Shown here: in pieces, positions 6,885 through 63,892 of the stretch
Numbering within the stretch: the first letter of the stretch is position 1
Layout: each line of letters begins with the position of its first letter
Assembly (NCBI GenBank): GCA_030831165.1
Contig: JAURLP010000018.1
Span: 1-64,000, forward strand
Direction: 5' to 3'
Source: Gammaproteobacteria bacterium
Lineage (GTDB): Bacteria; Pseudomonadota; Gammaproteobacteria; Pseudomonadales; Pseudohongiellaceae
Length of the DNA stretch: 64,000 nt
Program-made: the position numbers and the translations under genes
Notes under the pieces: generated by a model
The model's input: the letters and a program-made list of their open reading frames with translations, nothing else
What the model was told of the DNA's origin: nothing
Database searches by the model: none

Positions 6885-8263
6885 TTATGCCCAGGCTAAT
6901 TTAGCATGCAGATCAACAACTTCACCCACAATTATCAGCGTTGGCGCCTGTACATTCTTTACCTTGATGATCTCAGGCAAAGTGCCCAAAGTCCCAATAT
7001 AAATTTGCTGATTAGGGGTGGTTCCCTGCTGGATTAACGCAACAGGGGTCGTGCTTGCTCTGCCATGCTTAATCAATTGCTCACAAATTAATGCCAAACT
7101 AATCAACCCCATGTAGATGACAACGGTCTGATCTTTCTGCACTAGGCTGTTCCAATTCAAATCACACTGATTATTCTTCATATGTCCTGTTACAAATATA
7201 ACTGACTGAGCATAATCACGATGAGTTAGTGGAATTCCCGCATAAGATGAACAACCGGAGGCAGCCGTTATACCAGGCACTACCTGAAAAGGGATTTTAG
7301 CCATTGCCAATTCCTCTATTTCCTCGCCTCCGCGACCAAAAATGAAGGGATCTCCACCTTTCAGCCTCAACACTTTTTTGCCGGATTTTGCCAGCTCAAC
7401 TAAAAGAGAGCTAATTTGCTCTTGCGGCATTGTATGGTTTTGTCGTTGCTTGCCAACATGAATCTTTTCAGCATCCTGCCTTGTCATATTTAGAATCGCA
7501 TCCGATACCAGGCGATCATAAAGCACAACATCCGCTTGTTGCATAAGACGTAAGGCCCTAAAGGTTAATAAATCAGGATCCCCAGGACCAGCACCCACCA
7601 GATACACTTCTCCCTGTGAAAACTCTTCTCCATTAAAGTTGCTAAGCATGGACTCAACTAAAGCGTCCGCTTGCTCAGTTTTCCCAGCCAAAAGTAATTC
7701 TGCCGCTGGCCCGTTAATCACCCTTTCCCAAAAACGCATACGCTCCGTGAAGGAAGCTATTTTGTGTTTTACACGTTCTCTAAATCCGCCTAAAAAGGAC
7801 GTTAACAAACCGTAACCAGAAGGAATAAGGGTTTCCAGTCGTGAACGCAATAAACGAGCAAGCACAGGCGAATTACCGCCGCTTGATACAGCTATCACCA
7901 GTGGCGAACGATCAACAATCGAAGGAAATATAAAAGAACATAGCGCAGGTTGATCAACCACATTAACAGGAATATTTTTATTGCCTGCATGTTCAGCTAT
8001 CTGCTGATTCAACGCCAGATCATTTGTTGCAGCGATAATTAATGTGACGGAATCAATATCACTGCTTTGATAGGGGCGACACAAAATTTCATGCTCATCG
8101 CTACCTAATAGCACTTCTAATTCAGAACATATTTTAGTTGCTACTAATTTTATTCTGGCTCCGGCGCGTAAAAGAAACTTTGCTTTACGTAAAGCTATTT
8201 GCCCCCCACCTACCAATAACACCTGCCGGTCTTGGACCTTATAAAATATAGGCAAATAATCCA

Positions 8264-8264
<1 letters not shown>
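6885..8264 (-). CDS. cysG: siroheme synthase (multifunctional CysG)
   Basis: This 459-residue trifunctional enzyme makes siroheme from uroporphyrinogen III for sulfite and nitrite reductases. The N-terminal half is the precorrin-2 dehydrogenase/ferrochelatase, with [18 protein letters not shown] (residues 15-32) as NAD-binding site. From about residue 217 comes the SAM-dependent uroporphyrinogen-III methyltransferase, with [16 protein letters not shown], the DVVLYDRLV strand and [15 protein letters not shown]. Length matches E. coli CysG. Its ATG shares one base with the serS stop (TAATG), so the two genes are translationally coupled. Confidence 0.96.
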
Positions 8265-9595
<1,331 letters not shown>

Positions 9596-61124: not shown

Positions 61125-62003
61125 CTAGAATGCCGGAGCAATCGCTCCTTCTGGAGGCGCCCAAGTCTCACAAGGAGTCGGATTCCATTTGGAATTATCA
61201 GGTTCACGACGGTAATGTGAAGTTGTTACATAAGGCTGAAATAAATACTTTGGATCATCAACAATAGTAGTCACTACAAACCATTCTTCTCCTGTGGGCG
61301 CCGTAAAACGATTATAGTATTCCGTTAAAATGGTATCTTCACTATAAGGAATACCATTGGGCCTGAGATAACCGGGGCGCATTTGTGTCGTAATCACTTT
61401 CAAGGTGCCACTGGGTGGAGGCTCATCATCCGGATTAGCATTGCTACCACGGTTAATCAATATATTTTCCCAGTCAGCCACACTATAGCCCTGCCAACTT
61501 CTTTCAAGGTTGGCAGCCTCTAACATCATGCTAATTAATGGCCGACGCCCTTCTCTAGAAAAATTTATTAGCCTGGTTTGTGATCCTGCGTCTGTATCAA
61601 TTCGCAAGGTAAAGTCGTCCTGCCAGCTAATTTGCAGCCTCGTTGGAACCCGCATAATTCTGGCCGCACCAAAGGCTTTACATTGAAGGCCCGCAGCATT
61701 ATCAGCCTCCAGGTCCCAACTGTTGGCAACAGTTTTGCCTGCCTCATTGACAGGTACACTCATAGTGTCACCTATAGCCGGTGTCAGCATACGATATGCC
61801 CAATCCTCAGTGACCAGTGAAACCCAGGTTCCTGTCAGATCAATGGGCGCTTCTGCTCTGCCAGGAGCCTGCGCAGCCACTGGCCCGCCAAAACGCTGTG
61901 CATAAGAAGAAGTTGTAATGCATGAAAATAAAACTAAACACCACAGAAACTGTGAGAATTTTTTAAAAATTTCATTAAACATTTGTTTAGAGTAATTCTG
62001 CAT
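61125..62003 (-). CDS. secreted hypothetical protein, paralogue of the protein at 62972-63892
   Basis: This 292-residue protein has a signal peptide (FLWCLVLFSCITTSSYA, then QRFGG). The mature part starts with DLTGTWVSLVTEDWAYRM and has MSVPVNEAGKTVANSWD and VITTQMRPGYLRPNGIPYSE, with TEYYNRF and VVTTIVDDPKYLFQPYVTTS later; each segment has a counterpart in the 306-residue protein two genes upstream. ATG 62003 has GGAGG 6 nt before it and overlaps the MBL-fold gene by 17 bp. The GTW near the N-terminus recalls lipocalins, but no function can be assigned. Confidence 0.75.
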   Translation of the reverse strand: MQNYSKQMFNEIFKKFSQFLWCLVLFSCITTSSYAQRFGGPVAAQAPGRAEAPIDLTGTWVSLVTEDWAYRMLTPAIGDTMSVPVNEAGKTVANSWDLEADNAAGLQCKAFGAARIMRVPTRLQISWQDDFTLRIDTDAGSQTRLINFSREGRRPLISMMLEAANLERSWQGYSVADWENILINRGSNANPDDEPPPSGTLKVITTQMRPGYLRPNGIPYSEDTILTEYYNRFTAPTGEEWFVVTTIVDDPKYLFQPYVTTSHYRREPDNSKWNPTPCETWAPPEGAIAPAF

Positions 62004-62961
62004 ACACTGCCTCCAAAAATATTCTTGTCGTCCATTCCCCTGAGTCATGCCCGTATATGCCGTCATATTCTAAGGAAGGGTGTGCTGCTAGCACTTCTTC
62101 AAAGGAAAGTCCGTCATCAATCATCAGTTGCACCCGGTCACGAATGATAGTCACCATATCTCGATATTCAACAACATCCGACTCACTGGCTATACGGCCA
62201 TGTCCAGGGATTATCAGGGTGCCTCCCTGTTGATTAAACTCTGGAACGGCAATTTCAATAATGCTGTTGAGCGCATCAATAAGTCCCTGTAAGGACCCTC
62301 CATATTCAGGGTAAAAATGGGGGTATGAAGTAGTATCGAAAATATCTCCGGTCACAAGCACATCGGATCCACGAAAATGCACCAGGACATCTGATTGAGT
62401 TATTGCTGCAGGTTGATGCAATATTTCTATGGGTTCCCCGTTCAGATAAAGCGCCTTGTGTTCACTAAAAAAAGTGCTGTTTGGCCATACCTCGTAAGGA
62501 ATAGCATCAATAAATTCAGCCACCAAAAGTGATAAACCATTAGCATGTCCCACAATTGGGATACCTACATCCTGGTTTAGCCCAATCAGAGCCTCAACCC
62601 CTCCTATTTCGGAAATCACTTCATTCCCGGCCAGATGCGAGGGCAATACTGAAGTATTGATAATATAACGTGGGGGCAGTGAACTAAGCTCTCTTATTGC
62701 ATCAGCCACATTAGCTGAGGCTTCGAAATTACCAGTATCCACCACGATCAATCCTAATTCGCCAACCATTACAGCAATGTTGCTGCCGCCCGTTGCGATC
62801 ATGGTGATACTGCCCTGAACAGGCAACACTTCAATTTCATCACTGGTTATGGATGGGAAATCTGGCCTTTGCGCCAAGGTAGGTTGAACCAAAAAAGCAC
62901 TTATCACCGGTATTGAGACACTAAAAAAGAGCCGGCAGAATATTGTATTTTTTAAAGCCAT
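61987..62961 (-). CDS. secreted metallo-beta-lactamase-fold protein with degenerate metal motif
   Basis: This 324-residue protein has a signal peptide (cleavage after PTLA, residue 30) and an MBL fold: NIAVMVGELGLIVVDTGNFEASA, RYIINTSVLPSHLAGNE, VLVTGDIFDT, and LIIPGHGRIASESDV. The canonical HxHxDH is replaced at residues 104-109 by S-V-L-P-S-H, keeping only the last His; the GD and PGHG elements remain. ATG 62961 follows AGGAG, which overlaps the upstream stop codon. It is the middle gene between two secreted paralogues. It could be a pseudo-hydrolase or bind one metal. Confidence 0.8.
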   Translation of the reverse strand: MALKNTIFCRLFFSVSIPVISAFLVQPTLAQRPDFPSITSDEIEVLPVQGSITMIATGGSNIAVMVGELGLIVVDTGNFEASANVADAIRELSSLPPRYIINTSVLPSHLAGNEVISEIGGVEALIGLNQDVGIPIVGHANGLSLLVAEFIDAIPYEVWPNSTFFSEHKALYLNGEPIEILHQPAAITQSDVLVHFRGSDVLVTGDIFDTTSYPHFYPEYGGSLQGLIDALNSIIEIAVPEFNQQGGTLIIPGHGRIASESDVVEYRDMVTIIRDRVQLMIDDGLSFEEVLAAHPSLEYDGIYGHDSGEWTTRIFLEAVYAELL

Positions 62962-62971
62962 CATTGCTCTC

Positions 62972-63892
62972 CTATTCCCCTGCCTGATTTTTGTCAAACT
63001 CTTCACGCATCTGTCGCAAAGTTTCACGGTACTCAGGGTAGATCGTGATGGCACCACCTGTAGTCGCCTCAACAGCGACTCCTAAACGATTTGCCATGTC
63101 AAGATGCTTGGTTCCCAGAGGCCAGTGAGGAACCCAACCAGGATCCATGGCAACTTCTTCTACGGGCTCGAATGCTCTTCTTAGGTCAACTACTTGAGGA
63201 GGATTCCAAATCCAGGTCTGACTTCTAACAAGGGGTTCTTCAAGATAAATAGGATCTTCAATATGACTGACCATGGTGAGGTATTCGCCATTGCGAAACC
63301 AGTATTCAGTCATCACTGCATAAGGGCTTGCAGGCACACCATTACGTTGATAAACCCCATATTTCATATGCGTCGTGGTCACCACTAACATCCCATTTGA
63401 CCACTCTCCTGTAGAAAATCCATTCCACTGGTGCAGACCATAGCGCTCAGAGGGGTGCGGTCTCCCATCCAGCCATATGGTACGATCAGCATTCCCAAAA
63501 GTACCATAGGTTTGATAACCAATGTGCTCTCGTGTGACTGGATCAACAATACGATCAATACTCAAGTTAGGCCTCGGTCCCCTGAACGAATACTGAGCAG
63601 GATGAGGCTGAGCTTGTCTTTCAGGCTGAGACAGAATAGAAGCATCCCAGGTTTCTGCCTTTTGTCTTGCAGCGGCATTCATGGGAATACCTGTGTACTC
63701 TCCAAGACCAGCTCCAGGCAACCTGTCATACCAGTCTTCCAGTACCAAGGCTGACCACATTCCGGATATATCAAAAGCCTCACTAGCGACTGGAATCGGT
63801 TGCGCTCTGGCCAAATTATTAACGAAATTAAGCGTATTGAATTGTAATAGAAAGACCACGACAACTTTTGTGGCCAGGCTGTTTTGCCGCAT
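62972..63892 (-). CDS. secreted hypothetical protein, first gene of the MBL-fold operon
   Basis: This 306-residue protein has a signal peptide (VVVVFLLQFNTLNF to about ARA, residue 30) and a body with FDISGMWSALVLEDWYDRLP, TGIPMNAAARQKAETWD, VTTTHMKYGVYQRNGVPAS, VMTEYWFR and MVSHIEDPIYLEEPLV. These match, in order, segments of the protein at 61125-62003, so the two are paralogues. I do not recognise the family. Ten bases separate its TAG from the MBL-fold start. It is preceded by AAGGGG as ribosome-binding site. Confidence 0.75.
   Translation of the reverse strand: MRQNSLATKVVVVFLLQFNTLNFVNNLARAQPIPVASEAFDISGMWSALVLEDWYDRLPGAGLGEYTGIPMNAAARQKAETWDASILSQPERQAQPHPAQYSFRGPRPNLSIDRIVDPVTREHIGYQTYGTFGNADRTIWLDGRPHPSERYGLHQWNGFSTGEWSNGMLVVTTTHMKYGVYQRNGVPASPYAVMTEYWFRNGEYLTMVSHIEDPIYLEEPLVRSQTWIWNPPQVVDLRRAFEPVEEVAMDPGWVPHWPLGTKHLDMANRLGVAVEATTGGAITIYPEYRETLRQMREEFDKNQAGE

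Follow-up and report, generated by a model that had tools for sequence, protein, structure and literature searches.

Genes and features of the A–B–C operon

Three adjoining genes, termed here A, B and C in the order of their transcription, were studied in a 64,000-nucleotide stretch of DNA (the window; positions 1 to 64,000 of contig JAURLP010000018.1) from a gammaproteobacterium of the family Pseudohongiellaceae. An original prediction had described them as two homologous secreted proteins (A and C) flanking an exported metallo-beta-lactamase (MBL)-fold protein (B), and had suggested a joint function outside the cytoplasm. The three genes form a compact minus-strand operon, with the following features:

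62972..63892, minus strand: gene A, a putatively exported and probably calycin-like beta-barrel protein of 306 amino acids (aa), from its open reading frame (ORF), conservation, AlphaFold model and fold search
61987..62961 or 61987..62964, minus strand: gene B, a putatively exported MBL-fold protein with a degenerate metal site, from PF00753 and its ligand positions
61125..62003, minus strand: gene C, a putatively exported and probably calycin-like beta-barrel protein of 292 aa, homologous to A, from its ORF, conservation, model and fold
62967..62972, minus strand: GGAGAG, a ribosome-binding-like site for B, read directly; its first base is the last base of the A stop codon
61987..62003, minus strand: 17-bp overlap of the B and C reading frames, from the ORFs and the sequence
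62010..62014, minus strand: GGAGG, the ribosome-binding site of C, within the 3' end of B, read directly 6 nt before the ATG at 62003

B may start at the ATG at 62961 or at an in-frame ATG at 62964, the former leaving a 10-bp gap after A. This gap, the B/C overlap and the internal ribosome-binding site had been described beforehand, and the coordinates and the position of the GGAGG bear out that reading. Judged by eye, each of the three N-termini has a hydrophobic segment and, after it, an A-x-A-like site; in a crude script test of the copies present in the same genome (see below), a signal-like start was seen in 10/10 A, 9/11 B and 11/11 C proteins. On the strength of these putative signal peptides, A, B and C would all be located outside the cytoplasm.

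Conservation of the trio

A scan of named genomes yielded 346 C-encoding stretches. The best 80 of these 346, ranked by similarity to the C protein of the window, are the loci numbered with an L below, and the trio counts apply to C genes close to that protein. They contain 91 C genes, of which 19 were dropped for want of 3.2 kb of upstream sequence. Among the 72 kept, B was found upstream in 65, A in 65 and both in 62; an earlier count that missed joined frames had given 46/69. The commonest orders were A–B–C (25) and A–B–DUF6152–C (17).

A and B constitute one open frame in 14 loci, one of which (L075) is cut by the contig start. One more locus, in the relative G005 (L123), has A and B as a single frame with DUF6152 and C behind it, and in one locus (L072:5204-7429) a C domain and then an A domain share one open frame, with B and DUF6152 adjoining. 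Short frames in GC-rich contigs were called mechanically, so that some starts are wrong, and single joined A–B frames could be assembly errors. As indicated by the joined frames, a physical contact between A and B is likely; correlated divergence alone is no proof of contact.

Over 69 complete trios, the distance matrices of the proteins correlated at 0.71 (AB), 0.48 (AC) and 0.71 (BC), and none of 500 permutations exceeded 0.28. Within the 10 trios of the window's own genome the values were 0.86, 0.68 and 0.57, reached by 0, 0 and 2 of 2000 permutations, respectively. Because the distances correlate even there, where a shared species history cannot act, the trios appear to diverge as units. 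Each alignment contained the window protein together with reference proteins (C, 92 of 99; A, 61 of 65; B, 74 of 84), those left aside being mainly truncated or remote.

Of the two outcomes that would have spoken against the original prediction, unrelated flanking proteins (see below) and a trio not kept together in relatives, neither was found, and the joint extracytoplasmic function that had been suggested is supported by the conserved trio, the 14 single A–B frames and the correlated divergence. An ordinary MBL hydrolase lying beside two unrelated hypothetical proteins was also considered, and was rejected in view of the homology of A and C and the conservation of the trio.

Homology and predicted fold of A and C

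The two flanking proteins are homologous, as had been claimed: the single window pair is matched by BLASTP at E 7e-18, and a profile-profile comparison of the families (62 A and 93 C sequences) gave E 2.6e-44 over 199 columns. The shared motifs named in the original prediction are present in the A/C alignment. Neither protein reached the cut-off of any family in Pfam or NCBIfam, and a search of PDB sequences gave no meaningful match, the best hits (E 0.16 for A and 0.29 for C) being unrelated proteins.

AlphaFold models were obtained with a predicted local distance difference test (pLDDT) of 90.1 for A and 90.2 for C, and a predicted template modeling score (pTM) of 0.87 for both. Eleven strands were predicted in A, two of them only 3-4 residues long, and nine in C; the calycin barrel is a closed up-and-down barrel of 8 to 10 strands. 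Among the matches listed by Foldseek, the best PDB match was a fatty-acid-binding protein for A (E 5.7e-4) and a biotin-binding protein for C (E 0.018), and the realigned top rows were fatty-acid- or retinol-binding proteins and NanoLuc. The best structural realignments yielded a middling Z in both cases: 9.5 for A, with a root-mean-square deviation (rmsd) of 3.1 over 116 residues, and 8.7 for C, with an rmsd of 3.7 over 114 residues. A GxW motif, which is the first-strand signature of calycins, lies within the first predicted strand of both models; its G is invariant in both families, and its W is invariant in C and conserved at ≥90% in A. Because of the fold matches and the position of this motif, A and C are likely, but not proven, to be calycin-like barrels.

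The likeness to the calycin superfamily (fatty-acid-binding proteins, lipocalins, avidins) would consist of the predicted, putatively closed barrel, together with the GxW motif and the best fold matches. A and C differ in having no meaningful sequence relation to any Pfam or PDB entry, in being about twice as long as the matched chains, with extra helices, and in occurring as an operon pair with an MBL protein; with no Pfam family reached at cut-off, they do not qualify as lipocalins or fatty-acid-binding proteins in the strict sense. The families also differ from each other: four His are conserved at ≥90% in A, and in C two Cys are invariant and no His is conserved at ≥90% among the 93 sequences.

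The metal site of B

B was matched above threshold by PF00753 (Lactamase_B; E 1.1e-6, 29.1 bits against a gathering score of 22.7). Its only NCBIfam matches, TIGR04559 (E 3.9e-19, 69.1 bits against a cut-off of 280) and TIGR04558 (E 6.4e-12, 45 bits against 300), fell below threshold, and its nearest solved sequence was 8d2z (E 3e-20). The canonical MBL ligands are the HxHxDH motif plus a later His, Asp and His. At these seven positions the B protein of the window has S, L, S, H, I, D and H, keeping 3/7. The earlier description of an exported MBL-fold protein therefore stands as regards the fold, but the window copy is without four of the seven metal-binding residues.

All seven ligands are intact in 25 of the 75 aligned B members, and the B tree, in which many forks are weakly supported (24/72 inner branches open at support <80), requires at least 10 changes between an intact and a non-intact site. 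In the window's own genome, 3/11 of the B copies adjoining C are intact (L015, such as the copy at 8029-8967, L016 and L017) and 8/11 are not. Despite its eroded site, the B gene of the window is under strong purifying constraint; its ratio of nonsynonymous to synonymous substitution rates (dN/dS) relative to the closest relative was 0.08, compared with 0.03 for A and C, the synonymous rate (dS) being saturated. The possibility that this degenerate B gene is a pseudogene was rejected on the grounds of its open frame and of a dN/dS of 0.08 to 0.1 against L029, L030 and L031 (a rough ratio, with dS saturated).

Copies within the genome and distribution

The 2.3-Mb genome to which the window belongs encodes 11 C genes, in 10 complete trios and one incomplete copy, which are scattered. 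A and B adjoin C in 10/10 of the C genes with room for them, in the order A–B–C in 9/10 trios and B–C–A in 1/10; the eleventh C, at a contig end, lies in the arrangement DUF6152–B–C. Two additional A genes stand apart, with weaker A-like genes elsewhere, and of the extra B genes one directly follows a C and two, B-like, stand apart. The neighbors of the trios, where scanned (n=10 proteins), are mutually unrelated and include an amidase, a threonine synthase and a thiolase, among others. Since the neighbors of the scanned trios, the window's included, are unrelated to each other, the cassette appears self-contained. Recent tandem expansion within this lineage was rejected as a full account of the copies, as the B proteins of this genome fall among Acidobacteriota sequences at several places in the tree.

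Trio copies appear to turn over. In a metagenome-assembled genome (MAG) titled uncultured Pseudomonadales (AE_MB411), a copy with window-like neighbors (L032:5945-8975) is broken into several frames, and two other copies in the same MAG (L030, L031) are open.

C was matched in all four genomes searched of the same genus, and in four more from two other genera of the family; with the window's own genome counted, 9/28 genomes of the family carry C and 19/28 have none. Among 369 sampled genomes of the class, only the window's own has C at E 1e-30. The best 80 of the 346 loci were distributed among Acidobacteriota (66), Pseudomonadota (13) and Actinomycetota (1), and the nearest named relatives by C were MAGs titled Gammaproteobacteria and Pseudomonadales. 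In 15 genomes chosen from among these, 1 to 26 C matches per genome were found among the matches listed; split pieces are included in the per-genome counts of both C and DUF6152. The distribution of the A–B–C family is thus patchy among gammaproteobacteria, with frequent occurrence in Acidobacteriota, and transfer between the two groups is likely.

DUF6152 and other neighbors

In many operons B and C are separated by a short gene, which encodes PF19649 (DUF6152). It lies within 700 bp of C in 28/72 cases and is absent from the window's own operon. In 57/58 DUF6152 frames, one of which was counted twice via the overlapping loci L002 and L009, His-His directly follows the signal region (cleavage site judged by eye); Ala occupies position -1 in 54/57 of the frames with His-His, and both His, together with the His of an NPH motif, are invariant in 54/54 aligned sequences. 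The profile was built from 30 frames selected by a filter requiring Ala or Gln to be followed by one or two His, and the His-His is therefore partly a product of selection. All five frames that were compared with Pfam's own DUF6152 model (L036, L009, L014, L016 and L023) are matched by it, and the matched part contains the His-His region or has it at its margin. Examples with His-His after the signal region and an invariant NPH are:

L036:5699-6088, DUF6152 frame
L009:100-510, DUF6152 frame
L016:10891-11325, DUF6152 frame

Copper histidine-brace proteins begin, when mature, with an N-terminal His and have a second His. As in these proteins, and in the metal proteins described in PMC12537917, mature DUF6152 should begin with His; DUF6152 is accordingly put forward only as a candidate family of N-terminal-histidine metal proteins. 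Metal binding has been demonstrated for N-terminal-His proteins identified by a related approach; those described there (DUF4198, DUF6702, anglerases) have, like DUF6152, a signal peptide and then His directly (PMC12537917). A search of solved structures by sequence found no DUF6152 relative with a known site, and gave one weak adhesin match (E 8e-5).

In stretches read from the relative G005, 19/21 DUF6152 genes either immediately adjoined an A/C-like gene or, in 4 cases, were fused to one, and fusions were also seen in two other loci. Among the matches listed, DUF6152 was found 18 to 75 times in each of the nine C-bearing relatives (own genome included) and 0 to 2 times in each of the nineteen without C; G005 (75), G012 (45), G011 (40) and G016 (36) belong to the two other genera of the family. 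The nine C-bearing genomes represent three genera only, and the co-occurrence of C and DUF6152 does not amount to nine independent events. The original prediction, right in what it observed, had understated the case in missing this partner, the multi-copy nature of the trio and the degenerate metal site.

A second family, DUF6644-type membrane proteins with recurring His (judged by eye), is encoded directly downstream of C in two Acidobacteriota operons:

L036:7050-7553, DUF6644-type membrane protein
L047:5679-6182, DUF6644-type membrane protein

Sub-threshold relatives of DUF6644 are located at L035:2926-3423 and L053:8772-9734. Flanking proteins were surveyed in loci L029 to L081, where 107 of the 213 meeting the filter were scanned, DUF6152 being left out by design. 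An attempt to derive the substrate from neighbors was rejected: no recurrent pathway was seen among the 10 neighbors of trios in the window's genome, the seven of the window trio, the 107 flanking proteins, 10 chosen proteins and 10 near DUF6152 in a relative. Long outer-membrane-type proteins with a CarboxypepD_reg-like start, an identity judged from sequence and from 4/107 Pfam matches, recur in 13 and 5 loci (BLAST clusters 1 and 12). CarboxypepD_reg-type outer-membrane proteins are abundant in Acidobacteriota, and for this reason they were not counted as partners.

At the window locus, a SelO gene converges with C at a distance of 8 bp, and beyond it, among the seven neighbors scanned, lie genes for a radical SAM protein, a glycosyltransferase and three DUF proteins. 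On the other side, outside the window, a 12-pair terminator-like hairpin is situated between A and the next upstream gene (7 such patterns in the stretch, compared with 4.4 in shuffles); because it separates A from that gene, A–B–C looks like a unit of its own. Just past the window end, at L020:9608-10258, a 216-aa protein with a signal-like start and a sub-threshold DUF1554 match is encoded upstream of A, with the hairpin between them. A similar protein is encoded upstream of A in L029, L032 and L012, in the last case 17 bp from A.

Possible functions of the system

The explanation we favor, tentatively and as one that may well prove wrong, is that A, B and C make up a diversified module, periplasmic or on the outer surface, by which small hydrophobic molecules are captured and processed. 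The barrels A and C would hold the ligand or hand it over; hydrophobic-ligand binding is suggested because both predicted barrels resemble lipid- and retinoid-binding calycins. B would be associated with A, the two forming a single chain in some lineages, and, since this MBL protein is tied to A, it may hydrolyze an ester- or lactone-type bond where the two-metal site is intact. A degenerate B, such as the window copy, would serve as a binding or scaffolding partner or retain a reduced metal site. DUF6152, the candidate N-terminal-histidine metal protein, would be a frequent fourth part elsewhere. The many diverged copies per genome suggest different specificities, and would then make up a repertoire.

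A number of points weigh against this proposal. The fold matches are middling (Z 8.7 to 9.5; Foldseek E 0.018 for C), and function cannot be read from a shared barrel, here a predicted one. A general role of B as a hydrolase is difficult to reconcile with the absence of the canonical site from two thirds of its copies. The commonest flanking family, DUF6644, accounts for 6/107 proteins, and no flanking family names a substrate. The correlated divergence across species is partly shared ancestry, only the within-genome values being free of it. Finally, we know of no ligand, substrate or activity for any member.

A bolder formulation, which we regard as doubtful, is that of a novel periplasmic machine in which calycin-type barrels are combined with DUF6152 and with an MBL protein repeatedly turned from enzyme into non-canonical partner, and in which tens of copies would provide a repertoire for environmental hydrophobic molecules. 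The proposed A–B–C/DUF6152 repertoire would then be multiplied in the way that SusCD-type systems are in other bacteria.

The best surviving alternative is periplasmic metal handling, in which DUF6152 and A would bind copper, nickel or zinc, B would store or transfer the metal and DUF6644 would move electrons or metal. The histidines of DUF6152 (partly selected for, as noted), the metal binding reported for N-terminal-His proteins in PMC12537917, the four conserved His of A and the DUF6644 genes downstream of C are all in line with such a role. It is nonetheless unlikely: the window's operon lacks DUF6152, no His of C is conserved at ≥90%, the metal ligands of B have been lost repeatedly, and no metal-transporter family occurred in two or more of the 107 flanking proteins. 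Moreover, it is unusual for a metal-homeostasis system to be present in dozens of diverged copies.

Another scenario is that the trio is an accessory to the periplasmic oxidation of hydrophobic alcohols by pyrroloquinoline quinone (PQQ) and cytochrome c, in the manner of the quinoprotein-relay metallohydrolases. B indeed shares the MBL fold with these enzymes, their two models (TIGR04558 and TIGR04559) being its best curated matches; a PQQ-dehydrogenase family was matched by 3/107 flanking proteins, a PQQ-dehydrogenase gene lies near a DUF6152 pair, and a glucose/sorbosone dehydrogenase gene lies near one trio of the window's genome. B differs, however, in scoring far below the cut-offs, in lying between two barrel proteins and in often missing the metal ligands. 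A TIGR04559 gene is expected next to a PQQ dehydrogenase, and no PQQ family was found among the seven neighbors of the window trio, nor among the 10 proteins near other trios of the same genome. We consider this role improbable.

An envelope-structural or assembly role, with A, B and C forming a surface complex without small-molecule chemistry, comes next and is likewise improbable. It would accommodate the correlated divergence, the joined frames and the many B copies without a canonical site, but all seven ligands persist in one B copy out of three, and C is missing from genera of the same family. A role of the exported set in inactivating small molecules of foreign origin (lactone signals or antibiotics), in which the barrels would act as binding proteins, would agree with the sequence similarity of B to solved beta-lactamases and with the many diverged copies, but is highly improbable given that the di-metal site is lost in most copies and that no recurrent defense or resistance family was found among the flanking proteins scanned.

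Novelty and significance

Nothing on the A–B–C combination was found in the literature searched (titles only for the broadest search), and neither DUF6152 nor DUF6644, nor their Pfam accessions, were mentioned there, PMC12537917 without its supplements included. As far as tested, then, the system is not covered by a known one, as had been foreseen. Since no Pfam or NCBIfam model matches the A/C family at its cut-off and the combination was not met with in that literature, A–B–C appears to be new as a combination, made of folds of known kinds, and the mechanism outlined above is a proposal. DUF6152, although not part of the window's operon, is connected with the trio by its place between B and C in many operons and beside A-like proteins elsewhere.

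If the module for small hydrophobic molecules is correctly proposed, a considerable group of the proteins that some Acidobacteriota and gammaproteobacteria export would belong to one undescribed system, and several unnamed families would be given a function at once. Within a single genome, the B proteins would provide naturally graded examples of the MBL fold, from those with an intact metal site to those in which it has been dismantled, and DUF6152 may represent a new family of metal proteins.

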